DNA from: an uncultured Thermodesulfobacterium sp.
GTDB taxonomy: Bacteria > Desulfobacterota > Thermodesulfobacteria > Thermodesulfobacteriales > Thermodesulfobacteriaceae
Assembly (NCBI GenBank): GCA_938091335.1
Contig: CALLJG010000005.1
Coordinates: 124,001 to 188,000 of the forward strand
Direction: 5' to 3'
DNA: 64,000 nt
In this document: one piece after another, positions 50,632-64,000 of the stretch
Numbering within the stretch: position 1 is the first letter of the stretch
Layout: each line of letters opens with the position of its first letter
The notes under the pieces: model-generated
Seen by the model: the letters and a program-made list of their open reading frames with translations, nothing else
Databases searched by the model: none
Told to the model about the DNA's origin: nothing
Made by a program: the position numbers and the translations under genes

Positions 50632-52878
50632 ATGTGGAGATTGGTGTCTTTTGTAATATTTTTAATTCTATTTTTTCTTAATGGAGCAAGAGCTGATCAA
50701 GGGAATGAGAAAAAAATGGAAGAAGAAATGCTTAAGGAGGTTGTTGTAACTGCAACAAGAACGGAGAAAGAGGTAGAGTTAGCACCAGCAAGTGTAAGTG
50801 TTGTAACAAAGGAAAGAATTGAGCTTAAAGCACCTAAAACAATTGATCAAGCATTAAATGATATTACTGGTTTATATGTTGAAAGAGTTGCAGGATTAAT
50901 GGAATCTCGTTTTTCTCCTATAACTCTAAGAGGAATTCCTGGTCAACCACGAGTTCTTATTCTCAGGGATGGAATTGTCCTTAATGATCCTAGTACAGCT
51001 CATGCAAGATTTGGAGGATTTTATCCAGAAGATCTTGAAAGAGTTGAAGTTGTAAAAGGGCCTTTTTCTTCTCTTTATGGTGGATATGCAATGGGTGGAG
51101 TTATAAATTTTATTACCAAGATGCCAGAAAAAAGGGAATTTAGTCTTAAATCAGGATATGGTTCCAGTTGGGATAGAAGTAAAGCATGGGATGATCTTAG
51201 AAGATTCTATATTTCTTATGGAGACAAACTGTGGGATAAATTAAGCATATTTCTGAGTTATGGCTTCCAGAGTACAAATGGTTTTCCAATGACGTTAAAT
51301 GTAACTCGGTTTAAACCTCCAGCTAATATTAGTGGATATGAGGAAACAAAAACATCAACAGGTCAATCTGCTTATCTTATTGGTGATAAGGGTGATACTC
51401 GTTGGTGGGATGATGGGATAACTTTCAAGCTTCAGTATAAATTTACAAAAGATACCAAAGTAAATTTTTCATTTGTGAGAAATCGTTATGAGCTTAATAA
51501 TGACGAACCTCACACTTATTTAAGAGATCAATTTGGAAATCCCGTATGGAGTTACGTAGTTTCTCCTTTTCCGCCCATAAAGGTGAATGAAAGTACTTTT
51601 CTATCTGGCGGTCAAGGAAGAATTCAAAACCTATATGCTTTAGGTTTTGAATCTAATTTATGGAAAGATCTAAAAATGAAATTAAATTTTTCTTTTTTTG
51701 AGACTGAAAAAGATTGGTATGTAACTCCATTAAGTGAGGCAACAAGATTTGGTTGTGGTTCAGATTCAACCAAATGTGCTACTGTAAATAACACCCCTGC
51801 AAAGGCTTACATGATAGACGTACAGTTTAGCCTTCCAATCTTTGCTAATCAAATTCTTACCTTCGGCGGTTCTTTTAGACAGGAAAGTGGAGATACAAAA
51901 GAAAAATTTTTAAGAGATTGGAGAGATGAAAAATCAACAACAACTCTTTCACAAGAATTCAGAGGAAAAGGCAGAACCTATGCTCTTTTCATTCAAGATG
52001 AAATTATGTTACTTGATAATCTTACAGCTTACATAGGTTTTAGGCAAGACTGGTGGAATACTTATGATGGTTACATTAATAAAGTTGGACAAGCTGGCTA
52101 TCCAAAATCTTATCCTACAAGATCAGTTTCCTCTTTCAGTCCGAAATTTGCTTTAGTATATAAACCTCTTAAAAACACTATTTTGCGAACTTCTATTGGA
52201 AAGGCTTTCAGACCTCCAACAATTTTAGAACTTTATAGAGAGTTTACTCCTCCAGATAGAATACTAAGGATGGGGAATCCTGCTCTTGAACCAGAAAAAG
52301 TCATCTCTTGGGATTTAGGACTTGAACAAAAGCTTTGGAAAGGATCTAAAATCTCTTTAACATATTTTGATAACTATTTAAAGGATTTAATCTATTATAG
52401 GGATTTAGATCCACAAAGAAAACAACTTGTCAATGTGGGAAAAGCAGAATCCCGTGGAATAGAGTTTGAATTTGAACAGAAATTTGAAAAATGGTTAAGA
52501 TTATTTGCAAATATTACCTATACTGATTCTGAAATAAAGGAAAATGAGGCATCTCCTAAAACTGTTGGATGTAGACTCACCTACATTCCACTTTGGACTG
52601 TTAACTCTGGAGTAGAGATTGAGAAGTCAGGATTTTCAGCAACTCTTATTAGTAGATATGTTGCTAAAAGATATCTTAATGATGATAATTCTGACAAAAT
52701 AAATAATGTCTTTGGCTCCCTTGATCCATATTTTGTTGTTGATGGAAGAATTAGCTATCAAATTACAAAATTTGCAAAGATCGGTTTTTCAGTAGATAAC
52801 ATTTTCGACAGAAAGTTCTATACATGGCATAAAGCAGCAAGAAGATCATGGTTTGCTGAGATTACATTTAAGTTTTAA
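50632..52878 (+). CDS. TonB-dependent outer-membrane receptor
   Basis: This 748-residue receptor has a signal peptide (VSFVIFLILFFLNGARA), a TonB-box-like EEMLKEVVVTATRTEKE, a plug domain with LRGIPGQPRVLILRDGIVL and VEVVKGPFSSLYGGYAMGGV, and a C-terminal 22-strand barrel ending in phenylalanine (WFAEITFKF). The class takes up siderophores, haem, cobalamin or metal chelates. The frame extends to 50581, but AGGAGG (50621-50626) lies 5 nt before the ATG at 50632. It is followed 17 nt later by the CobN-like gene, so the ligand is probably a tetrapyrrole or a metal destined for one. Confidence 0.92.
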   Translation: MWRLVSFVIFLILFFLNGARADQGNEKKMEEEMLKEVVVTATRTEKEVELAPASVSVVTKERIELKAPKTIDQALNDITGLYVERVAGLMESRFSPITLRGIPGQPRVLILRDGIVLNDPSTAHARFGGFYPEDLERVEVVKGPFSSLYGGYAMGGVINFITKMPEKREFSLKSGYGSSWDRSKAWDDLRRFYISYGDKLWDKLSIFLSYGFQSTNGFPMTLNVTRFKPPANISGYEETKTSTGQSAYLIGDKGDTRWWDDGITFKLQYKFTKDTKVNFSFVRNRYELNNDEPHTYLRDQFGNPVWSYVVSPFPPIKVNESTFLSGGQGRIQNLYALGFESNLWKDLKMKLNFSFFETEKDWYVTPLSEATRFGCGSDSTKCATVNNTPAKAYMIDVQFSLPIFANQILTFGGSFRQESGDTKEKFLRDWRDEKSTTTLSQEFRGKGRTYALFIQDEIMLLDNLTAYIGFRQDWWNTYDGYINKVGQAGYPKSYPTRSVSSFSPKFALVYKPLKNTILRTSIGKAFRPPTILELYREFTPPDRILRMGNPALEPEKVISWDLGLEQKLWKGSKISLTYFDNYLKDLIYYRDLDPQRKQLVNVGKAESRGIEFEFEQKFEKWLRLFANITYTDSEIKENEASPKTVGCRLTYIPLWTVNSGVEIEKSGFSATLISRYVAKRYLNDDNSDKINNVFGSLDPYFVVDGRISYQITKFAKIGFSVDNIFDRKFYTWHKAARRSWFAEITFKF

Positions 52879-52895
52879 GGGATTTATAGAGAAAA

Positions 52896-55800
52896 ATGAA
52901 AAAAATCTTAGCCTTAACTACTATCAACGACATGACAGCTTTCAGAGAAGCTGTTAACCAGATAAGAGAAGAATATGGTAATATTGTAGCAGTAAAGAAA
53001 ATTTATCTTGATGATTATGAAAATCCTGATATCTCCCTCGATGAACTTAGAGAAGAAATAGAAAACTCTCATATTGTGCTTATTGACATAAGAGGAGATA
53101 ATAGATTAAGTCGTGAACTTCACCTTCTCCTTGAAGGAAAAGAAAAAACAGTGGTTGTTTTGGTTGCAAGTGGACAACACATCTGGAAACTGTTAAAAAT
53201 GGGAAAATTTAAAGGTGAGATGATCTTTAAAGGCGAAGAAAAAGAATTTAATCTTCAAACTTATCTTAAAGAGAAGAAATTCTCAGAGTTAACAGAAAAA
53301 CTTGGCAAAATCCTTCCTTTCGGAATATTAAAAGATATGCGGAACTGGGTTTTAGCTCAGCAATATTATAATGAAGGAGATACAGAAAATATAAAGAGTC
53401 TTATTCTTCTGCTTCTGAAGGAATATGCAGGAGTTGAGGGAATAGGTAAAATTCCACCACCACGAACTTTCGAGTATAGAATATACTTACCAAAAAGAGG
53501 CTTTTTTTATGACATAGATGAATTTAAAAAAGCTCTTCCCTACAATCCTGAAAAGCAAACAGTGGCTGTTTTAATGTATGGTGGCATGCACTTCAATGAA
53601 TGTAAAGTAGTGGCAGATTCAATTTTCAAATATTTGCATAATGATGTAAACTTGGTTTTTATAGTATCAAAGGTTCAGTACAATATTAAAGCCCTTTTCA
53701 AATATTTAAAAAATCTTAAAGTGGACCTACTTCTGAATTTACAATACTTTAGAATTCATGGAGGTCCCTATGGAGGAGATCCGGAGCCAACTTACGAACT
53801 TCTAAAGGAATTGGGTGTTCCTCTCCTGATAGGCCTTAGGTCATCATCTACTGATTTAGAAAAATGGAGACTTAGCAAAGAAGGATTAAATCCAATAGAG
53901 ATTGTAATAGGTGTAACTTTACCAGAACTTGATGGAGCAATTGAACCTATTTTTATCTCTGGGTTACAAAGTTTTGATGATACCATGATAGGGAAAATAA
54001 AAGAACCAAAAGCATTAGAGGATAGAGTAGAAAAATTGGCAAAAAGGATTAAAAATTGGATCACTCTAAGAAAAATTCCAAATGAGAAAAAAAGAATTGC
54101 TATTCTAACCTACAACTATCCACCAGGAGAGGAAAACTTAGCCAGTGCTGGTTACCTGGATGTTTTTGAAAGTTTAAAAATATTTTTAGAAAAATTAAAA
54201 GAAAGAGGCTATAAATTAGAAAAATCATTCATTAATGTTAAAGAACTCTTTTTATCCAATGCAATATTTAATAGTCCTAAGTATACAGATAAGACACCTT
54301 CAATTAAGATACCCATTTCCGAGTATATCTCTTGGTTTAATAATCTTCCTGAAACTGTGCAAAAAAATATAATAAAACATTGGGGAGAGCCTCCAGGAAA
54401 GATAATGGTTGATAAAGAGGGCAATATTCTAATTCCAGGGGTATATTTAGGAAATATCTTTATAGGCATTCAGCCATCAAGAGGTGTTCATGAGGATATT
54501 GATAAAGCCTATCATGACAAAGAATTTCCGCCCCATCATCAATATTTAGCATACTATTTTTTCTTAGAGAAAGTTTTTCAAGCTCACGCAATAATACACT
54601 TTGGGATGCATGGAACTTTGGAATTTACTAAAGGTAAAGAGATTGCCCTTTCCTCAGAATGTTTTCCAGATATCCTTATTGGAAATATGCCACATATTTA
54701 TTATTACTGGATTGGAAATCCATCGGAGTCAACAATTGCTAAGAGACGTTCTTATGCCGTTTGTATTTCCCATGCATCTCCGCCAATGAAAACTTCGGGA
54801 CTTTATGAAAAATACATAATTTTAGAAGATTTACTGAATCAATATGAAGAAAACGCGGATGAAAAGACCTTGGAAGTTATTAGAGAAATTGCATTTGAAT
54901 TGCATTTACCCTCAGATGTCTCTGAAATAAGAAAAGAACTATACAGAATAAAAAGAAGACTTATTCCTTATGGATTACATGTAATGGATAAAAAATTAGG
55001 GGAAGAAGAAATTGTTGACTATCTTCTTGGTGTTTTACGAATTGACCGTGAATTTCCCTCAATTCTTAAACTAGTAGCAAATTATTATGGGCTTAATTGG
55101 AATAAAGTAAAGGAAAGTAAATTAGCCAATGAAATAGAGACAAAAGCAAAGGAAGTTATAAGAGAATTGCTTAAAAATAATAAAATCAATTGGCTACCAA
55201 AGGAATATCAAAAATTTGTTAGAAAGATTATAGAAAATATTTATCAATCATCAGAAAGTGACACTCTGTTACTCGCATTAGAGGGAAAATATATATTCCC
55301 AGCACGGGCAGGTGATCCTATTAGAGATCCTGAAGTTTATCCCTCTGGTAGAGGCATGTATGCCTTTGATCCAAGACTTATTCCAACTATTGCAGCAGAG
55401 GTGAGGGGGAGGAAAGCTGCTGATTTATTAATTGAGTCTTATTTAAAAAAATACGGAAAATACCCAGAGAGTGTTGGGATTATTCTTTGGGGATTTGAAA
55501 CCATGAAAACTGGCGGCGATACAATTGCTACAATCCTCTCTTTACTTGGAGCAAGGATAAAACATAAAAAAAATCCTTGGTTAAAAGAAATAGAAATTAT
55601 TCCCTTAGAGGAATTAAATAGACCAAGAATAGATGTTTTAATAACAATATGTGGAATTTTTAGGGATACCTTTGGTACCCATATTGACTTGATAAATAGA
55701 ACTATAAAAATGGTTGCAGAATTAAATGAACCACCTGAAAAGAATTTCGTTAGGAAACATTTTCTTAAACTAAAAGATAAATTGGATGATTATGCTCTTG

Positions 55801-56525
55801 CAAGAATTTTTGGTCCCTCTCCAACAGAGTATGCTACCTCTATGAGAACATTGGTTGAAAGTAGCGCCTGGAAAGATGAAAGTGATTTAGTAAAAAGTTA
55901 TGAGGAAAGCATGTGTTATGCTTATTTTAAGGGAAAAATAGAAAAAAATGAAAAAGCTTTTTCGAATTTAATTAAATTAATTGATATCGTAGCTCAGGAA
56001 AGAGATAACACTGAATATGAGGTCACAGACTTGGATCATTATTATGAATTTTTAGGAGGTTTATCCAGAACTGTTCAAGATAAGAAGGGACAAAAAGCTG
56101 AAATTATGGTTATAGACTCTACGGAAGAAGATGTTGTTGCAGAAGATTTAAAATTAGCCATAGAAAGAGCTGTTAGAACAAGAATCCTTAATCCTAAATG
56201 GATAGAGGGAATGTTAAAGCATGATTTTCATGGTGCAAAAAAAATAAAAGATAGAGTTGAATATCTTCTTGGTTTTGCTGCAACCACTGGAAAAGTTGAA
56301 AATTGGATATTTGATGATATAGCAGATAAGTTTATTTTTAACGATGATATGAGGAATAAACTTTATCAAAATAATCCATATGCTACAATGAAAATGGCTG
56401 AGCTTTTGTTTGAATCTGCAAAGAGGGGTTATTGGATAGTGGATAAAGAGAAAATGGATAAATTATTACAGTTAATAATGAATACTGAAGAAGATATCAT
56501 GGATGAGGATAAAGTTTTAAAGTAG
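52896..56525 (+). CDS. CobN/BchH/HmuS-family chelatase large subunit
   Basis: This 1209-residue protein matches the large, porphyrin-binding subunit of class I chelatases. The family core is clear: HFGMHGTLEFTKGKEIALS (residues 568-586) is the HxGxHGTLE..PGK motif, followed by CFPDILIGNMPHIYYY and TIAKRRSYAVCISH. The C-terminus ends with the NNPYATMKMAELLFESAKRG module. Homologues insert Co2+ (CobN) or Mg2+ (BchH), or strip iron from haem (HmuS of Bacteroidetes hmu operons). The context (TonB receptor, haem/B12-type ABC importer, ChlI and ChlD) suggests metal insertion into or removal from an imported tetrapyrrole. No signal peptide, so cytoplasmic. Confidence 0.9.
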   Translation: MKKILALTTINDMTAFREAVNQIREEYGNIVAVKKIYLDDYENPDISLDELREEIENSHIVLIDIRGDNRLSRELHLLLEGKEKTVVVLVASGQHIWKLLKMGKFKGEMIFKGEEKEFNLQTYLKEKKFSELTEKLGKILPFGILKDMRNWVLAQQYYNEGDTENIKSLILLLLKEYAGVEGIGKIPPPRTFEYRIYLPKRGFFYDIDEFKKALPYNPEKQTVAVLMYGGMHFNECKVVADSIFKYLHNDVNLVFIVSKVQYNIKALFKYLKNLKVDLLLNLQYFRIHGGPYGGDPEPTYELLKELGVPLLIGLRSSSTDLEKWRLSKEGLNPIEIVIGVTLPELDGAIEPIFISGLQSFDDTMIGKIKEPKALEDRVEKLAKRIKNWITLRKIPNEKKRIAILTYNYPPGEENLASAGYLDVFESLKIFLEKLKERGYKLEKSFINVKELFLSNAIFNSPKYTDKTPSIKIPISEYISWFNNLPETVQKNIIKHWGEPPGKIMVDKEGNILIPGVYLGNIFIGIQPSRGVHEDIDKAYHDKEFPPHHQYLAYYFFLEKVFQAHAIIHFGMHGTLEFTKGKEIALSSECFPDILIGNMPHIYYYWIGNPSESTIAKRRSYAVCISHASPPMKTSGLYEKYIILEDLLNQYEENADEKTLEVIREIAFELHLPSDVSEIRKELYRIKRRLIPYGLHVMDKKLGEEEIVDYLLGVLRIDREFPSILKLVANYYGLNWNKVKESKLANEIETKAKEVIRELLKNNKINWLPKEYQKFVRKIIENIYQSSESDTLLLALEGKYIFPARAGDPIRDPEVYPSGRGMYAFDPRLIPTIAAEVRGRKAADLLIESYLKKYGKYPESVGIILWGFETMKTGGDTIATILSLLGARIKHKKNPWLKEIEIIPLEELNRPRIDVLITICGIFRDTFGTHIDLINRTIKMVAELNEPPEKNFVRKHFLKLKDKLDDYALARIFGPSPTEYATSMRTLVESSAWKDESDLVKSYEESMCYAYFKGKIEKNEKAFSNLIKLIDIVAQERDNTEYEVTDLDHYYEFLGGLSRTVQDKKGQKAEIMVIDSTEEDVVAEDLKLAIERAVRTRILNPKWIEGMLKHDFHGAKKIKDRVEYLLGFAATTGKVENWIFDDIADKFIFNDDMRNKLYQNNPYATMKMAELLFESAKRGYWIVDKEKMDKLLQLIMNTEEDIMDEDKVLK

Positions 56526-56551
56526 GATCAAAGGCACAAAGGAGAAGAATC

Positions 56552-57550
56552 ATGCATAATAGGTTTAGGAATCTATCAATAATGATCATACTTAATTTGA
56601 TTCTTATAGCAGAAATTACTCATGCTTCTAGTATTAATCTAACTGACAAATTAAATAGAAAAATTAGCATAAACATTCCAGTAAATAGGGCTGTTATTGT
56701 AATAACTTATGAACTTATTCCAGCTTTAAATTTATGGGAACAAGTTGTGGGTGTTTCAAGATGGGCTGAAGAAGAATGCGGGCTTTATAAAGCAATTGTT
56801 AAAGAAAATCCTTCTTTTAGAAGACCATTGGTTGGTGGAGGAATGGATATAAATGTTGAAGCTGTACTTAAGCTTAAGCCTGATGTAGTAATTACATGGA
56901 CATATGTTCCTGATACAATAAGATTTCTTGAAAGTAAAGGAATAAAAGTAATAGGGATATGGCCAGAAAATCTTACTGAACTTTACAAAGATATAAGATT
57001 GCATGGAATGCTTTTTGGTAAGGAAAAAAGAGCAGAGGAAGTAATTAAAGAAATGGAAAAGATGTTAAATTTTATAAGAAATAGAGTCAGCAAAATTTCG
57101 CTAGAAAAGAGAAAAAAAGTAATTCATGTTGTAAGTACTCCTACAAGAGTTTCAGGAAAATTAGTAATAACAAATGATATTATAAAGATTGCAGGAGCAA
57201 TTAATATTGCAGAAGAAATAAATAAGAACTATATGGATGTATCAGTAGAAAAAATAGTTCAATGGAATCCTGATGTGATATTCATATGGGGCTCTGCTAG
57301 ATATGATGAGTCATGGTTTTATAACAACTCTCAATTTAGGTTTATAAAAGCAGTCAAAAAAAGACAAATCTATAAGCTACCCAAGTGGTCTACATGATCA
57401 CCTCGAGTTGCACCTATTGCCCTTTATATGGCAATGAAAATTTATCCTGAGGTATTTAAAGATATAAATTTTGAAAAAATGGTTGATAATTTTTATAAAA
57501 AGGTATTTGGGATCTCCTATTATAAAGTTAGACAATATGAAGAATATTAA
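56552..57550 (+). pseudogene. FecB/BtuF-type periplasmic binding protein interrupted by an in-frame TGA
   Basis: The frame from the ATG (AGGAGAAG ribosome binding site, signal peptide IMIILNLILIAEITHA) encodes a class III solute-binding protein for siderophore, haem or cobalamin. It runs 281 residues to a TGA at 57395-57397 in KLPKWST-stop-SPRVAPIALY, and the same frame then continues for 50 residues to TAA at 57548-57550. In relatives a tryptophan is usual at this place (WSTWSPR), so TGG to TGA is the simplest explanation. The tail has the conserved C-terminal helix. Either the gene is broken, or the TGA is read through, or this is a sequence error. The normal 3' end overlaps the permease start. 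Confidence 0.8.
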
Positions 57551-58538
57551 AGCAATAATAATACTTCTTTCTCCATTTTTAGTTGCATGGTTTGCACTTT
57601 TTTTTGGTGCTTACGGTGTTAGTCCTTTTATGGTAATAAAAATACTTTTAAATGAAAGTTTTCATATTTTTGATGTTGGTGAGAGTGCAGAGAAAGCCAT
57701 AATTATTGATATAAGACTTCCAAGGGTTCTTCTTGCAGGAATTGTTGGTGCAGCTCTTTCATGTTCAGGTGTAACGCTTCAGGGAATATTTCGTAATCCT
57801 CTTGTTGATCCTTTTATACTTGGTATTTCAGCAGGTGCAGCCTTTGGATGTGCTATAACAATTGGATTTTTAAGTTTTCTTCCCCTTCAGTTTACAGCCT
57901 TTATTTTTGGAGTCACTGCTGTGATAATTGCTTATGGAGTAGCAAGGATTCAAGGAGAGATTTCTCGGCTTCAACTGATTTTAGCAGGAATAATTGTATC
58001 AGCCTTTTTTACAGCAATGGTATCAATAGTTAAGTTTCTAGTTGATCCTCATAAACTTCAAAATATTATTTATTGGCTTATGGGAAGTTTTAGTCTTGCA
58101 GACTGGAGAGCTGTAAAAGTGGCATCAATAGGATTTTTTGCAGGTGTAATACCCATTTTTCTTATGCGTTGGAGACTTAATGTAATGAGTATGGGAGAAG
58201 ATGAGGCTAAGGTACTGGGAGTAAATGTAAAAAGGGAGAGGTTGCTTTTCATTGGGTTTTCTACCTTTGCAGTTGCGGTAGCTACTTCCTTATGTGGAAT
58301 TATTGGATGGGTTGGTCTTATAGTTCCACATCTTGTAAGAATGCTTATAGGACCAGACCATAGAAGTCTTGTTCCTTTAAGTATATCAGCAGGTGCAGCC
58401 TTTATGATAGCTGCAGATACTGTTTCAAGAACTCTTACAAGTTTTGACATACCGGTTGGCATAATTACTGCTTTAACTGGGGCACCATTTTTTATATACC
58501 TTATGAAACGTGGCGGAAAAGAAGCTTGGGTTAAATAA
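57537..58538 (+). CDS. FecCD-family ABC transporter permease
   Basis: This 333-residue permease (from the ATG at 57537) has about ten membrane helices and the BtuC/FecCD signatures: RLPRVLLAGIVGAALSCSGV, LQGIFRNPLVDPFILGISAG and IGWVGLIVPHLVRMLIGPDH. It would move a metal chelate, haem or cobamide into the cytoplasm. The frame extends to 57471, but the ATG at 57537 lies inside the 3' end of the binding-protein gene, as is usual for such operons. Its stop overlaps the ATPase start (TAATG). Confidence 0.93.
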   Translation: MKNIKAIIILLSPFLVAWFALFFGAYGVSPFMVIKILLNESFHIFDVGESAEKAIIIDIRLPRVLLAGIVGAALSCSGVTLQGIFRNPLVDPFILGISAGAAFGCAITIGFLSFLPLQFTAFIFGVTAVIIAYGVARIQGEISRLQLILAGIIVSAFFTAMVSIVKFLVDPHKLQNIIYWLMGSFSLADWRAVKVASIGFFAGVIPIFLMRWRLNVMSMGEDEAKVLGVNVKRERLLFIGFSTFAVAVATSLCGIIGWVGLIVPHLVRMLIGPDHRSLVPLSISAGAAFMIAADTVSRTLTSFDIPVGIITALTGAPFFIYLMKRGGKEAWVK

Positions 58539-59308
58539 TGTTAAGTATAAAAAATTTACATTTTAAACAAAAAGACTCAAAAGAAGAAATTCTTAAAGGT
58601 ATTAGTTTTGATGCTCAAAGAGGTAATATTACAACTATTCTTGGTCCTAATGGTTCTGGCAAAACAACTCTTTTTAAATGTATTGCTGGATTATGGGAGC
58701 CTTTAAAAGGAGAAATTCTTTTTGATGGAAATTCTATTGTGAAGCTATCCTTTAGAAAGAGAGCAAAAATTTTTGCAGTTGTTCCACAAGAACATGAACC
58801 ACCTTTTGCATATTCAGTCATTGATGTGGTTTTGATGGGAAGAGCAGGTCATATAGGAATCTTTTCTATGCCAGGGAAAAAAGATTATGAAATAGCTAAG
58901 GAAGCTTTAAAAATAGTAGAAATTGAGCATTTAAGTGAGAGAGCTTATACACAAATTAGTGGTGGAGAACGTCAGCTTACACTTATTGCTAGAGCTCTTG
59001 CACAAGAAACACCTGTTATGCTTCTTGATGAACCTACAAGTCACCTTGATTTTAGGAACCAAATAAATATCCTAAAAAAGATTAAAGAGATTGCTACAAA
59101 AAAGGGTCTCATAGTTTTAATGACCCTTCATGATCCAAATCTTGCAAGCCTTTTTTCAGATAAGGTAGTAGTTATAAACTCTGGAACAAAGATAGCAGAA
59201 GGAAGACCAGAAGAAATTATTTCAGAGGAGCTAATAAGAAGAGTTTATAATGTAGAAGTAATTATCAGTAAAATTAATGAAAAAAGTATTATATATCCTG
59301 TAATTTAA
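58538..59308 (+). CDS. FecE/BtuD/HmuV-type ABC transporter ATPase
   Basis: This 256-residue ATPase has Walker A LGPNGSGKTT, the Q-loop VPQEHEPPFAYSV, signature ISGGERQLTLIARAL, Walker B PVMLLDEPTSHLD and H-loop TLHDP. The HLD(F) ending is typical of the iron-chelate/cobalamin/haem importer class. It overlaps the permease by 1 nt. Confidence 0.94.
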   Translation: MLSIKNLHFKQKDSKEEILKGISFDAQRGNITTILGPNGSGKTTLFKCIAGLWEPLKGEILFDGNSIVKLSFRKRAKIFAVVPQEHEPPFAYSVIDVVLMGRAGHIGIFSMPGKKDYEIAKEALKIVEIEHLSERAYTQISGGERQLTLIARALAQETPVMLLDEPTSHLDFRNQINILKKIKEIATKKGLIVLMTLHDPNLASLFSDKVVVINSGTKIAEGRPEEIISEELIRRVYNVEVIISKINEKSIIYPVI

Positions 59309-59321
59309 AGGAGGCGATCAT

Positions 59322-59716
59322 ATGTTTAACTTTACAGCAATTGTATGGCAAAATTATTATAACATGCTTCTTAAGGCATCAAAAAATATAAAAGATTTTA
59401 ATATTAATTTATACTCTGCAAGAGTTCTTGAAAAAGAGCCTCAATTACTGAAGAAAATAGAAAATTTTTTGAAGAACATAATCCCTGGGCACTTGAAGAG
59501 ATAGCAAGAAGACTAATTGAGGCTATGGAAAGAGGTTTATGGAGTCCTGCAGATGATGTAAAAGAGGCATTAAAGGAACTCTATCTTGAAATTGAAGGCT
59601 GGATTGAGGAAAGGATGAGTGAGGTAAAAGGAGATTTTCAAGGAGGAAGCATAGATATTTTAACAGCAGAAGAGGTAAAGTTCTGGAAACAAAAGATGGA
59701 GGAGATTTTAAAATGA
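59322..59716 (+). pseudogene. Shrunken, frameshifted second CobN (N- and C-terminal pieces only)
   Basis: AGGAGG precedes the ATG. The first frame gives FTAIVWQNYYNMLLKASKNI and LYSARVLEKEP, which resemble the N-terminus of CobN-type proteins, and ends at 59504. A run of six T at 59465-59470 is where the frame is lost: with one more T, the protein continues as FFEEHNPWALEEIARRLI and AMERGLWSPADDVKEALKEL, and ends at 59716. That second part matches the C-terminal module of the CobN upstream. So about 1000 residues of the core are missing. Alternatives are a true small protein rescued by slippage on the T-run, or a sequence error. The 3' end overlaps chlI by 4 nt. Confidence 0.65.
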
Positions 59717-60723
59717 TATTTCCCTTTAGTGCTATTGTTGATCAGGAGGAGATGAAGCTTTCTCTAATTTTAAATGTTATTGACCCAAGTATTGGTGGAG
59801 TTTTAATTATGGGTGAAAAAGGAACTGCAAAATCAACAGCTGTAAGGGCATTGGCAGATTTGCTTCCTGAAATTGATGTAATAAAAGGCTGTAAATTTAG
59901 TTGCTCACCACAAGGACCTTTTTGTAGTGATTGTATTGAGAAAATTAAAAATAATGAAAAATTAGAAATTGAAAAAAAGAAGATGCGAGTGGTTGAGCTT
60001 CCGCTTGGTGTTACTGAAGACAGGGTGGTAGGAAGTCTTGATATTGAGCAAGCCATTAAAAAAGGAGAAAAGCATTTTCACCCAGGAATACTTGCAAATG
60101 CAAATAGAAACTTTCTGTATGTAGATGAGGTAAATCTTCTTGAAGACCATATTGTTGATCTTTTGCTTGACTCTGCTGCAATGGGAATAAATATAGTTGA
60201 AAGGGAAGGAATTTCCTTTGTCCATCCTGCAAGATTTATTCTTGTAGGAACAATGAACCCAGAAGAAGGAGAACTAAGACCACAACTTCTTGATAGATTT
60301 GGTTTATGTGTTCAGGTGAATTCAATAAGAGAAAAGTCCATGCGTGTTGAAATTTTGAAAAGAAAAGCAGAATTTGATGATGATCCAGAAGAATTTTACA
60401 AAAAATGGCAACCTTTCCAACAAGAACTTGTAGAAAAGATTATAAATGCTAAGGAGAAACTTAAAACTATACCTATTACTGATGAAGCAGTCTCAAAAGT
60501 TGTTGAAATCACTGCAGAACTAAATCTTGATGGTCACAGGGCTGATATTGTGATACTTAAAGCAGCAAGAGCCTATGCAGCATTTCTCAATAAAAAAGAA
60601 ATAACAAAAGATGAAATAAAAATGGTTGCACCATTAGCCTTAAAGCATAGACTAAAAAGGCTTCCTTTTGAAGATATATCAGAAGAAACTAAGAAATTAG
60701 ATGCAATACTTAAAAGAATATAA
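59713..60723 (+). CDS. Magnesium-chelatase subunit I-like AAA+ ATPase
   Basis: This 336-residue AAA+ protein has Walker A GEKGTAKS (residues 34-41), the BchI pattern [17 protein letters not shown], Walker [20 protein letters not shown], and sensor segment [19 protein letters not shown]. It carries four cysteines at residues 60, 64, 71 and 74, which could hold a metal or Fe-S cluster, as in several bacterial BchI-like proteins. It is the ATP-driven motor of a class I chelatase, working with ChlD and the CobN-like subunit upstream. It is directly followed by chlD. Confidence 0.9.
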
Positions 60724-60724
60724 G

Positions 60725-62566
60725 ATGAATTTTATAAACTTTATCAATCAAGAAAATGCTAAACTTGCACTTTTACTTAATTTAATTGAACCACGCTGTG
60801 GAGGGGTTTTATTAATAGGAAAAAAAGGAACAGGAAAATCAACCCTTTTAAAAGCTTTTAAAGAGATTGTTAAAGTATTTAATCTCCCATTTGTTGAACT
60901 TCCTATAAATGTAACTGAGGAAGCTATTTTAGGTGGAATTGATATTGAAGCAACTATTAAGACTGGTGAAAAAAAATTTCAAAAAGGTATTCTTTCAAAA
61001 GCAAATGGAGGTTTTTTAGTTATAGAAGACATAAATCTTTTTCCTCAAGAGATTCTTTCAATTGTTTTTGAAGTTCAAGGAAGGACAGAAAATATTATTG
61101 AAAGAGAAGGATTTACTTTAAAGGAGCCTGCAAATTTCCAAATAATTGCAACAATGAATCCTGAAGAAGCTGATTTCTCATCTCATTTTCTTGATAGATT
61201 TGGCATGTGTATAATTATGGATGAAATCAAGGATAGAGTAAAAAAAGAAGAAATTATAAAATTAAATGTCTTAAATAGATCCGCCTTTAGCGATCAAAAT
61301 GAATTGATCAAAAAAATTAATTATTGTCAAAATTTTATCAAAGAAGTTAAACTCTCAGAAGAAATAAAAGAAGCAATTGCTGATACGGTTTTGAAAGAAA
61401 GAGTTTCTGGACATAGAGCTGATATTTATCTTTATTATGCTTCAAAGGCATATGCTGCCTATTTAAAAGAAAAAGCTGTAACTGAAGAACATGTAAAGGC
61501 TGTAGCTCCTCTTGTTTTAAATCACAGAAAAAAATACATAGAGCCAGAACGTGAAGAACAAAAGCTTGAGCTTAAGGATGAGAATAAGCATGAAGAGAAT
61601 AATTTTGATAATTTAGAAAATAATAAAAAAGAAAGAGACCAAAAACTTCCATCATCTAAAAATGAAGCACCTAATAATAGAAAATCTCAATGTATTCCAT
61701 CTACCGAAAAAGAAGAAGTTTTTCCAGTTGGAGAAATTTTTAAAGTGAAAAGATTTATCTTTAAAAGAGACAGATTAATAAGAGAGGCAACTGGAAGAAG
61801 AACAAAGACAAAAACAAAAACTACAGGTGGAAGATATATCAAAAGTGTTCTTAAGAAAAAGCCAGATATTGCGATTGATGCTACTTTAAGAGCAGCTGCA
61901 CCTTTTCAAAAAATTAGAGGAAGAAAAGAGCATCTTATTATTTTGGATGAAGACTTGAGATATAAAGAAAAGGAAAGAAAGATGAGTCATATAGTAATTT
62001 TTGTGGTTGACGGTTCAGGTTCAATGGGTGTTGAAAAAAGAATGACTACTGTAAAAGGAGCGATATTATCTCTTCTTATGGATTGTTATCAAAAAAGAGA
62101 CAAGGTCTCAATGATTGTATTTAGAAAAAATAAAGCAGAAATAGTTCTTCCAGTTACTTCTTCAGTAGAACTTGCAATGAAAAGACTTAAGGAGATACCC
62201 ACAGGTGGAAAAACACCTCTTTCTGCAGGACTTTTAGAGACTTATAATTTGATAAAAAGATTAAAACTAAAAGAACCAGAGGTTCGTTTTCTTGTTTTTA
62301 TTATTACTGACGGAAAAGCAAATGTTTCCATAAGTGGAAAACCAGTATTTGAAGAGCTCCAAACAATTTGCCTTAATTTTAGAAATTTACCATTTGTTGA
62401 TTTTATAGTTATTGATACAGAAAAGAAACAAAGTTTTATTAAGATGGATTTAGCTCTCAATCTTGCCCAATTGATTGGCGCTAAATATTTTCAAATGGAA
62501 GAACTAAAAAGTGATACAATTTTAAGTCTTGTAAATTTTTATAAAAATAATTACAAACCCCTTTAG
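60725..62566 (+). CDS. Magnesium-chelatase subunit D-like protein (AAA+ and VWA)
   Basis: This 613-residue protein (from the ATG at 60725) has an AAA+ domain with an intact Walker A (GKKGTGKST near residue 31) and a Walker B-like LVIEDINLFP. A charged, Lys/Glu/Asn-rich linker (about residues 280-350) follows, then a C-terminal von Willebrand A domain with MIDAS DGSGSMG (429-435). ChlD proteins link the ATPase ring to the porphyrin-binding subunit. The start 24 nt upstream (60701) overlaps chlI; the ATG just after the chlI stop begins the homologous region. It is the last gene of the cluster. Confidence 0.9.
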   Translation: MNFINFINQENAKLALLLNLIEPRCGGVLLIGKKGTGKSTLLKAFKEIVKVFNLPFVELPINVTEEAILGGIDIEATIKTGEKKFQKGILSKANGGFLVIEDINLFPQEILSIVFEVQGRTENIIEREGFTLKEPANFQIIATMNPEEADFSSHFLDRFGMCIIMDEIKDRVKKEEIIKLNVLNRSAFSDQNELIKKINYCQNFIKEVKLSEEIKEAIADTVLKERVSGHRADIYLYYASKAYAAYLKEKAVTEEHVKAVAPLVLNHRKKYIEPEREEQKLELKDENKHEENNFDNLENNKKERDQKLPSSKNEAPNNRKSQCIPSTEKEEVFPVGEIFKVKRFIFKRDRLIREATGRRTKTKTKTTGGRYIKSVLKKKPDIAIDATLRAAAPFQKIRGRKEHLIILDEDLRYKEKERKMSHIVIFVVDGSGSMGVEKRMTTVKGAILSLLMDCYQKRDKVSMIVFRKNKAEIVLPVTSSVELAMKRLKEIPTGGKTPLSAGLLETYNLIKRLKLKEPEVRFLVFIITDGKANVSISGKPVFEELQTICLNFRNLPFVDFIVIDTEKKQSFIKMDLALNLAQLIGAKYFQMEELKSDTILSLVNFYKNNYKPL

Positions 62567-62709: not shown

Positions 62710-64000
62710 ATGGAAAAACCAAGGGATAAAAAGGATGTTATGGAATTGATCAAACAGCATGATGTGAGATTTGTGAGACTCTGGTTTTCTGACATTCATG
62801 GTCAGCTCAAGAGTTTTGCCATCCATGTAGATGAGCTTGATTTAGCCTTTGAAGAGGGGATGGGTTTTGATGGCTCATCTATCAAAGGATTTGCTAGGAT
62901 TGATGAGAGTGATATGATTGCAAGACCTGATCCAACTACATTTGCAATCCTTCCCTGGAGGCCAAAGGAAAAAGCAGTGGCAAGGATGTTTTGTGACATC
63001 TTTGAACCAGATGGCACACCTTACAAAGGGGACCCACGATATATTCTTAAAAAGAATCTTGAGAAGATGAAATCCATGGGATTTACAAATTTTTATATTG
63101 GCCCTGAGCTTGAATTTTTTTATTTCAAGTCAGATAAATCACCTGAAGTCCTTGATGAGGGTGGATATTTTGATTATCCAATGGATGCTGCAGAAGATTT
63201 AAGGCGTGAAACTATACTTGCCCTTGAGTCAATGGGAATAAGGGTTGAATATTCTCATCATGAAGTCGCACCCTCTCAGCATGAGATAGACCTAAGATAT
63301 GCTGATGCACTTGAGATGGCAGATATGGTTATGACTTATAGAGTTACTGTAAAAGAAATTGCTCGTAAATACGGTGTCTATGCGACCTTTATGCCAAAAC
63401 CACTTTTTGGCAAAAATGGTAGCGGAATGCACACCCATCAATCTCTCTTTATAGGTGATAAAAATGCTTTCTTTGATCCAAATGATAAGTATTATCTTTC
63501 TGATATTGCAAAGTCATACACAGCTGGGCTTTTAAAACATATTAAGGAAATCACTCTTGTGCTTAATCAGTGGGTAAATTCTTACAAAAGACTTGTTCCA
63601 GGGTATGAAGCACCAGTATATATATGCTGGGCAAGGAGAAATCGCTCTGCACTAATAAGAATACCAATGTATAAACCAGGAAAAGAAAAAGCAACAAGAA
63701 TAGAGCTACGTTCCCCTGATCCTGCTTGCAATCCTTATCTTGCTTTTTCTTGTATGCTCTGTGCTGGACTAAAGGGAATAGAAAAGGGTTATAAACTTCC
63801 TGAACCAGTAGAGATTGATGTCTATCATCTTTCCCCAGAAGAAAGACAAAAGATGGGGATAGAAGAATTACCTGGCAGCCTTATAGAAGCAATAGAAATA
63901 GCAGAAAAGTCTGAACTTCTAAAGGAAACCCTCGGAGATCACATATTTAAAGAGCTTATTACAAGTAAAAAGATAGAATGGGATGAATACAGAATTAGAA
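62710..64000 (+). CDS. glnA: Glutamine synthetase type I (3' end cut by window edge)
   Basis: 430 residues are visible, starting at ATG 62710 after AAGGAGG. The enzyme makes glutamine from glutamate, ammonia and ATP. Recognisable parts are the N-terminal beta-grasp domain with FDGSSIKGFARI, the metal-site segments YIGPELEFF and EVAPSQHEIDLRYADALEM, the ATP-binding FMPKPLFGKNGSGMHTHQSL and RIELRSPDPACNPYLAF. No clear adenylylation tyrosine site of the enteric type is seen in this short (archaeal or Bacillus-like) form. The last few residues lie beyond 64000. Confidence 0.95.
   Translation, partial: MEKPRDKKDVMELIKQHDVRFVRLWFSDIHGQLKSFAIHVDELDLAFEEGMGFDGSSIKGFARIDESDMIARPDPTTFAILPWRPKEKAVARMFCDIFEPDGTPYKGDPRYILKKNLEKMKSMGFTNFYIGPELEFFYFKSDKSPEVLDEGGYFDYPMDAAEDLRRETILALESMGIRVEYSHHEVAPSQHEIDLRYADALEMADMVMTYRVTVKEIARKYGVYATFMPKPLFGKNGSGMHTHQSLFIGDKNAFFDPNDKYYLSDIAKSYTAGLLKHIKEITLVLNQWVNSYKRLVPGYEAPVYICWARRNRSALIRIPMYKPGKEKATRIELRSPDPACNPYLAFSCMLCAGLKGIEKGYKLPEPVEIDVYHLSPEERQKMGIEELPGSLIEAIEIAEKSELLKETLGDHIFKELITSKKIEWDEYRIR

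Follow-up and report, generated by a model that had tools for sequence, protein, structure and literature searches.

What is a class I chelatase, supplied with an ATP-driven motor of its own, doing among the genes of an importer? The question is raised by seven co-directional genes on the + strand (50632-62566) of a 64,000-nucleotide stretch (the window) of contig CALLJG010000005.1 from an uncultured Thermodesulfobacterium sp., of a thermophilic sulfate-reducing lineage; they encode a TonB receptor, a class I chelatase H subunit, a binding protein, a FecCD permease, an ATPase, ChlI and ChlD. The run is real and lies far beyond chance. Our tentative answer, to which we give somewhat less than an even chance, is that the operon serves metal-chelate uptake followed by ATP-driven metal removal, exchange or insertion, and that nickel or cobalt is the likeliest metal. 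Its large subunit has been replaced by one of another kind. A sequence-only reading had already listed the genes, and Pfam bears out every gene it named; their common direction and the receptor start at 50632 are confirmed too. That reading holds for the run itself, but it overlooked the replacement of the large subunit, a deletion scar and the interruption of the binding-protein gene. The features are the following.

50632..52878, + strand: TonB-dependent receptor, 748 amino acids, Plug and barrel, not BtuB (Pfam, NCBIfam, tree).
52896..56525, + strand: class I chelatase H subunit (P0002), BchH side, 1209 amino acids, no membrane anchor (NCBIfam, tree, motifs).
56552..57397, + strand: class III substrate-binding protein, interrupted by an in-frame TGA, with a homologous frame to about 57550 (Pfam, PDB-chain matches).
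57537..58538, + strand: FecCD-type permease, ATG 57537, in an open reading frame (ORF) that is open from TTG 57471 (PF01032, 314 bits).
58538..59308, + strand: ABC importer ATPase of the BtuD/FecE class (Pfam, NCBIfam).
59322..59716, + strand: deletion scar, about 46 N-terminal CobNa codons joined out of frame to 89 C-terminal CobNb codons (blastp, blastn, PF02514).
59713..60723, + strand: ChlI, AAA+ motor subunit, 336 amino acids (TIGR02030, TIGR02442, dN/dS).
60701..62566, + strand: ChlD, AAA+ plus VWA subunit, 621 amino acids (TIGR02442, TIGR02031, motifs).

The H gene is flanked by gaps of 17 and 26 bases, 139 bases separate the binding-protein stop from the permease ATG, overlaps of 1 and 23 bases follow within the run, and a gap of 404 bases precedes ChlI. 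Pfam scores are 190 bits for the TonB barrel, 1056 for CobN-Mg_chel, 104 for Peripla_BP_2, 314 for FecCD and 107 for ABC_tran; the motor genes carry AAA and AAA_lid_2 (ChlI) and AAA and VWA (ChlD) domains.

The H subunit passes the BchH model (TIGR02025, 888 bits against a cutoff of 829) and fails the CobN model (TIGR02257, 679.8 bits against 822.05). The tree of large subunits comprised 80 rows and 1222 columns and was built by a quick search with support from the SH-like approximate likelihood ratio test (SH-aLRT) only; 35 of the 115 gathered rows had been excluded because they were duplicated, short or very similar to others, and neither L136 nor L181 offered an ORF above 900 amino acids. 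In this tree the H subunit falls on the BchH side (88), into an uncharacterised clade of 50 rows (support 98, starred), of which 29 carry archaeal names. Two true BchH rows are sister to this clade at a support of 88, which is not starred, and the BchH branch is long (1.41). The aerobic CobN references (L109, L110 and L114, annotated as CobN, two of them beside cob genes) and the CobNa and CobNb proteins of the family occupy a separate side of the tree (99, starred), and the H subunit lies outside the clade that holds these references. HmuS and four family proteins form a group of their own (99, starred), also apart from it. By model scores and position the H subunit is neither CobN nor HmuS, but a member of a clade on the BchH side that is common to archaea and bacteria.

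Among the matches listed, its closest relatives are L115 (91% identical), L116 (87%), L118 (75%) and L117 (70%, from an Archaeoglobaceae bin), and archaeal titles stand on 61 of 80 related loci (the best 80 of at least 536 confirmed). An archaeal donor is nevertheless unsupported and none can be named, since archaeal names account for only 3 of the 13 rows of the immediate clade and 29 of the 50 rows of the wider one. Note that the bin of L117, labelled Archaeoglobaceae, also contains a bacterial TonB-CobNa-CobNb operon (L224, G148:C139); the bin is therefore mixed, and a bin label is weak evidence for any single contig. In family-mates, loci L076, L082, L085 and L094 encode another class I chelatase of about 1320 amino acids that groups with HmuS (99, starred) and belongs to a different operon. 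Each has a weak TonB-type match no more than about 3 kb away, in one case on the opposite strand, and the two that were inspected are both without the HmuS His/Glu motif.

The metal-site motifs of the H subunit are HFGMHG and DLDHYYEFLGG. The matching stretch reads LDHVYEFMGG in HmuS, DHYFDTLGG in BchH rows, DSDDYYQFEGG in an aerobic CobN, and GCC[SC]YFGT.GG or close to it in CobNa/CobNb.

The earlier large subunit has left its remains in the 404-base gap before ChlI. The scar joins the start of CobNa to the end of CobNb, out of frame to each other; by blastp it matches five CobNa starts at 48-65% and four CobNb ends at 71-79%, blastn recovers L080, L072, L083 and others, and PF02514 positions 1053-1088 are covered. 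The CobNb piece still has a ratio of nonsynonymous to synonymous substitution rates (dN/dS) of 0.10 against the operon of G065 (L083, one codon out of register, was left out of this comparison), so the loss looks recent. L116 retains a weak trace, 114 bases at 68%, which is partly the start of ChlI. An ancestral large subunit of the CobN side was deleted in the window lineage, and the BchH-side H subunit now stands beside the receptor while the ChlI/ChlD motor is intact. ChlI scores 493 bits with TIGR02442 and stays under the cutoff of the BchI model (TIGR02030, 451 against 467 bits), with a dN/dS of 0.04-0.10 and partly saturated dS. ChlD scores 522 bits with TIGR02442 and 396 with the BchD model (TIGR02031), under its cutoff of 500; it retains a P-loop (GKKGTGKS) and a metal ion-dependent adhesion site (MIDAS, DGSGS) and has a dN/dS of 0.18. 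The value for the H subunit is 0.11-0.17.

The family of the window places this replacement in context. A PF02514 protein occurs in 21 of 30 family genomes, the large subunit is split in two genes in nine, and the whole run (receptor, binding protein, permease, ATPase, CobNa, CobNb, ChlI and ChlD) is present in seven (G065, G120, G123, G126, G127, G130 and G133), with the receptor cut by the contig start in G123 and G126; parts of the operon are cut by contig ends in G121, G122 and others. Apparently standalone C-terminal CobN proteins in G118, G125, G108 and G137 were rejected as genes cut by contig ends. In the genus-mate G028, one natural control for the operon, the run lacks a large subunit and the ChlI frame is broken. 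These observations bear on a published table (PMC9227772, Table 1), in the available part of which Thermodesulfobacterium commune has small and medium subunits and no large one, a state read there as an early evolutionary stage. Given the split large subunit in nine of the 30 genomes and the broken ChlI of the one genome that lacks it, late loss or a missed split gene is a simpler reading, judged from the family of the window and not from T. commune itself.

L115 and L116 share the gene order of the window, in which the H subunit follows the receptor and precedes the binding protein, and their binding protein is uninterrupted. At 61 loci of the clade the flanks reach at least 4 kb: a ChlI/ChlD-type gene occurs at 28 of these, a gene for a binding protein or importer at 25 and a same-strand TonB gene within 6 kb at six; the full set was seen at L115 and L116 only. 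Pairs of ABC-2 type exporter genes lie in or directly behind the operon at L079 (4899-6490), L104 (11496-13114) and L195 (13992-15562), and none lies between receptor and ChlD in the window. In other uptake operons small genes stand between receptor and binding protein, of the FmdE type at L087 and L089, of the TrmO type at L206, and for a MinD-like ATPase at L087, L090 and L206.

The receptor begins at ATG 50632, preceded by AAGGAGGTGG. Its NCBIfam scores are all under cutoff (best 25 of 33 models), including 233 against 316.85 for TonB-hemin and 168 against 599.7 for TonB-B12. On its tree it forms a clade with the receptors of L115 and L116 (100, starred), followed by the operon receptor of G065 (96, starred), and BtuB-like rows are distant. 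Arrival of receptor and H subunit as one foreign cassette was rejected on account of this nesting of the receptor among those of the family. Against L115 the two genes have dS values of 0.43-0.45, compared with 0.71-3.9 for most downstream genes (the exception being the 50 codons behind the binding-protein stop, 0.35). What is left is that receptor and H subunit have a shorter shared history with L115 than most of the downstream genes.

A leader some 129 bases long, which contains tandem hairpins (with CATGAAG-like loops) and a terminator-like stem and has no Rfam match, was seen in six copies in three genomes: L115 3232-3361 and 6578-6706, L116 6582-6710, L203, L204, and G000:C2:81575-81697 (L201), G000 being the source genome. 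It precedes TonB receptors four times (Pfam-confirmed twice at L115, by homology at L116, and at L206) and once a TrmO-type gene at a contig end. The copy in the source genome precedes a putative decayed receptor at G000:C2, which has no Pfam match. The leader is present in one of the 30 family genomes.

Evidence on the metal comes mainly from the binding protein. Its frame is stopped by an in-frame TGA, and over the 50 codons behind it identity to the L115 relative, which has no such stop, remains 96%; the uninterrupted proteins of L115 and L116 have 332 and 340 amino acids. The stop may reflect recent decay or a sequence error. Against PDB chains, NiuB/CeuE (4ino, 4ls3) scored best, with 143, 141 and 107 bits for L115, G065 and the window piece, and the curated BtuF model stayed under its cutoff (49 of 234 bits). 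According to the available text of PMC5140060, the metals transported by NiuBDE are nickel, cobalt and bismuth, and Ni(His)2 is bound by NiuB. The FecCD permease, with a dN/dS of 0.09-0.11, is the sole FecCD match in the source genome (1.39 Mb, 17 contigs, 92% complete), which also has a NikR gene. In Methanothermobacter marburgensis, as far as the accessible part of PMC12350162 reports, a protein annotated CobN1 and NikR1 occur at high level only under nickel limitation, for which the transporter is MTBMA_c10530; an earlier paper, seen in excerpt (PMC3087415), terms MTBMA_c10550-10570 'possible nickel chelatases', and from the locus numbers we read these as lying near MTBMA_c10530. On such comparisons nickel or cobalt would be the likeliest metal, and the ligand could be a tetrapyrrole or another chelator.

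The mechanism that we favour would then run as follows. The TonB receptor would carry a metal chelate across the outer membrane, and the binding protein with the FecCD/ATPase importer would carry it, intact, into the cytoplasm. There the H subunit would bind the chelate, and ChlI and ChlD would use ATP to extract, exchange or insert the metal, provided that the new H subunit works with the old motor. The emptied ligand might be returned by the ABC-2 exporter where an operon has one (L079, L104, L195). Because the operon goes with uptake rather than with synthesis, removal of the metal seems to us more plausible than insertion. A bolder version, which we think unlikely in its entirety, has a cytoplasmic de-chelatase, driven by ATP, that acts on imported tetrapyrroles of nickel (or cobalt), with H subunits of two distant types exchangeable on a common ChlI/ChlD motor, re-export of the ligand through ABC-2 and the ChlI/ChlD-only state as secondary loss.

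Several observations weigh against metal-chelate uptake centred on nickel or cobalt. The binding-protein gene is interrupted in the window strain. NiuB is followed in the structural comparison by 4ovk (101, 90 and 87 bits for L115, G065 and the window piece) and by HI_1472 (94, 101 and 76 bits), which we take to be a molybdate binder, and with these runners-up the metal is not pinned. Moreover, NiuB is absent from the best 60 of the 69 solved matches of the L117 binding protein, which stands beside the 70% identical H relative. No convincing NikR-type palindrome was found upstream in 14 operons, some with unsure starts (G137 came closest with 11 of 14 bases, and the window has 10), and the operon-bearing G144, G145 and G007 lack NikR altogether. 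CbiM/NikM importers occur in 27 of the 30 family genomes, so the operon is not the sole route for nickel or cobalt. A complementary loss of other nickel or cobalt importers was looked for and not seen, CbiM being present in 22 of 22 near-complete genomes.

Corrinoid salvage fares best among the rivals, and we regard it as rather improbable. It holds that a host without corrin synthesis takes up, through the operon, corrinoids that are incomplete or carry the wrong metal, and can use them once the chelatase has inserted cobalt or swapped the metal. Corrin-ring methyltransferases are absent: only two PF00590 matches occur in the source genome, a uroporphyrinogen methyltransferase-HemD (CobA-HemD) type fusion and RsmI, neither of them corrin-ring enzymes. 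The operon-bearing G065, G126 and G127 (completeness 100) have 3, 2 and 3 matches; 16 other family genomes have 5-8, taken to mean that the corrin pathway is present. The sequence-only reading had named a full cobalamin pathway, together with a tree position within CobN, as the finding that would count against it; with no corrin-ring methyltransferases in the genome and a large subunit outside CobN, neither is seen. It had also seen no corrin or chlorophyll genes near, in agreement with the annotated neighbours (four upstream genes and 7 of about 19 ORFs of L070, an 18-kb stretch starting inside ChlD), among which there are no CobW or cob genes either. In favour of salvage, the ancestral CobNa/CobNb groups with CobN in the tree (99, starred), cobalt is among the NiuBDE metals, and the source genome has a B12 riboswitch elsewhere (G000:C1:83994-84190), before a BtuB-like receptor that is followed by an arsenate-reductase-like gene and RsmI. 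A FecCD permease, too, is found in 8 of the 10 genus genomes that have a B12 riboswitch, compared with 2 of the 4 that have none.

However, the receptor is distant from BtuB, no B12 riboswitch (RF00174) reaches gathering score in the window, and the active-site stretch is unlike that of aerobic CobN in both subunit types. In addition, G100 and G119 have B12 riboswitches but neither FecCD nor PF02514, so that B12 uptake in the genus need not use the operon importer. From receptor, riboswitch and these two genomes we conclude that the operon is not for B12 import. Note that the earlier statement that cobalamin operons rarely carry the receptor and importer is wrong in at least one case, the genus-mate G120, in which a riboswitch heads a co-directional run that includes a TonB receptor, a binding protein and a CobN of its own, and farther along also corrin methyltransferases.

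Harvest of haem iron, in which an ATP-driven cousin of HmuS would strip iron from imported haem in the cytoplasm, strikes us as less probable still. The likeness to HmuS and the hmuYRSTUV operon of Bacteroidota, as the available part of PMC12583661 describes them, is a TonB receptor adjoining a class I chelatase H subunit and a His/His/Glu set at the proposed metal site: His572, His1048 and Glu1051 of the window protein align with His538, His1209 and Glu1212 of HmuS. The best NCBIfam matches of receptor and ATPase are likewise a haem-receptor family and a haem importer (221 against 261 bits for the ATPase), both under cutoff. Yet both histidines are also kept in the two true BchH rows, so the pair is no haem signature, and Arg and Tyr occupy the columns of the HmuS haem ligands Met79 and His254. 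The membrane anchors of HmuS are absent as well (top 19-residue hydropathy 1.47 compared with 2.97, and no hydrophobic N-terminus); with no anchor seen, the H subunit should act in the cytoplasm, where the motor sits. A methionine-rich insertion is seen neither in the H subunit nor in the HmuS reference L111. Haem-binding proteins score 33-47 bits with the binding protein (IsdE 39-47; BtuF, the B12 binder, 25-32), far from the 107-143 of NiuB. HmuS is further described in that text as having NADH-dependent activity and an operon without ChlI/ChlD or FecBCD; the sequence-only claim that hmu operons do not carry ChlI/ChlD thus agrees with this account and with one annotated example, L111. HmuY, ExbB-like and DUF2149 genes, all present at L111, are not found in the window operon. 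On ligands, anchors, gene set and separate clade, membership of the H subunit in HmuS fails. The earlier proposal of an ATP-driven import and metal-exchange system for haem or another metallotetrapyrrole thus keeps its chelatase with its own motor in an import operon and its lack of corrin-ring methyltransferases, and loses haem as substrate, the binding protein being nearest to a nickel/cobalt binder.

That the operon is instead a decaying relic, with the H subunit a passenger after loss of CobNa/CobNb and cutting of the binding-protein gene, is an equally poor prospect: the scar, the in-frame stop, the putative receptor fragment at G000:C2 and the motor decay in G028 would fit it, but six of seven frames are intact, dN/dS is low for H, ChlI, ChlD and FecC, L115 and L116 keep this arrangement with their binding protein uninterrupted, and the one stop could be a recent event or an error in the sequence.

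Metal-chelate uptake with ATP-driven handling of the metal also invites comparison with described machines. NiuBDE of Helicobacter pylori supplies the closest solved binding protein, a FecCD-type permease with ATPase, and the TonB receptor FrpB4 in the same route, but the system as described in the available text has no chelatase (PMC5140060), and no NikR site was found for the window operon. The aerobic cobaltochelatase, CobN with CobS/T or ChlI/ChlD, is the same three-part machine, with the lost CobNa/CobNb on its side; the present H subunit is not on the CobN side, and its genome is without corrin-ring methyltransferases. Magnesium chelatase (BchH/BchI/BchD) shares the BchH cutoff and tree side, whereas true BchH has its own long branch (1.41) and DHYFD in place of DHYYEF, and the window genes form an import operon and not a chlorophyll cluster. 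Of the uncharacterised archaeal CobN/BchH homologues, among which we count CobN1 of Methanothermobacter and the 'possible nickel chelatases', many belong to the same large clade, and several adjoin ChlI/ChlD and class III binding proteins, but they have no outer membrane receptor. Downstream of ChlD, a glutamine synthetase gene begins at 62710.

Literature searches, which did not extend to subscription journals, listed no paper that we saw to treat TonB, FecBCD and a class I chelatase with ChlI/ChlD as one system; what is new here is that, in a class I chelatase coupled to the import of a metal chelate, a replacement of the large subunit is documented. The EMBO J. paper on HmuS (PMC12583661), in its available part, calls it unclear what archaeal CobN/ChlH/HmuS relatives do. 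The operon gives archaeal and bacterial members of the clade an uptake context, by which a long-unclear enzyme family becomes testable, and it offers a natural experiment in which receptor, importer and motor of one kind are combined with one or the other of two different large subunits. If the bolder version were true, the de-chelatase would be the metal-release step of uptake in anaerobic bacteria and archaea, with substrates such as cofactor debris or mineral porphyrins.

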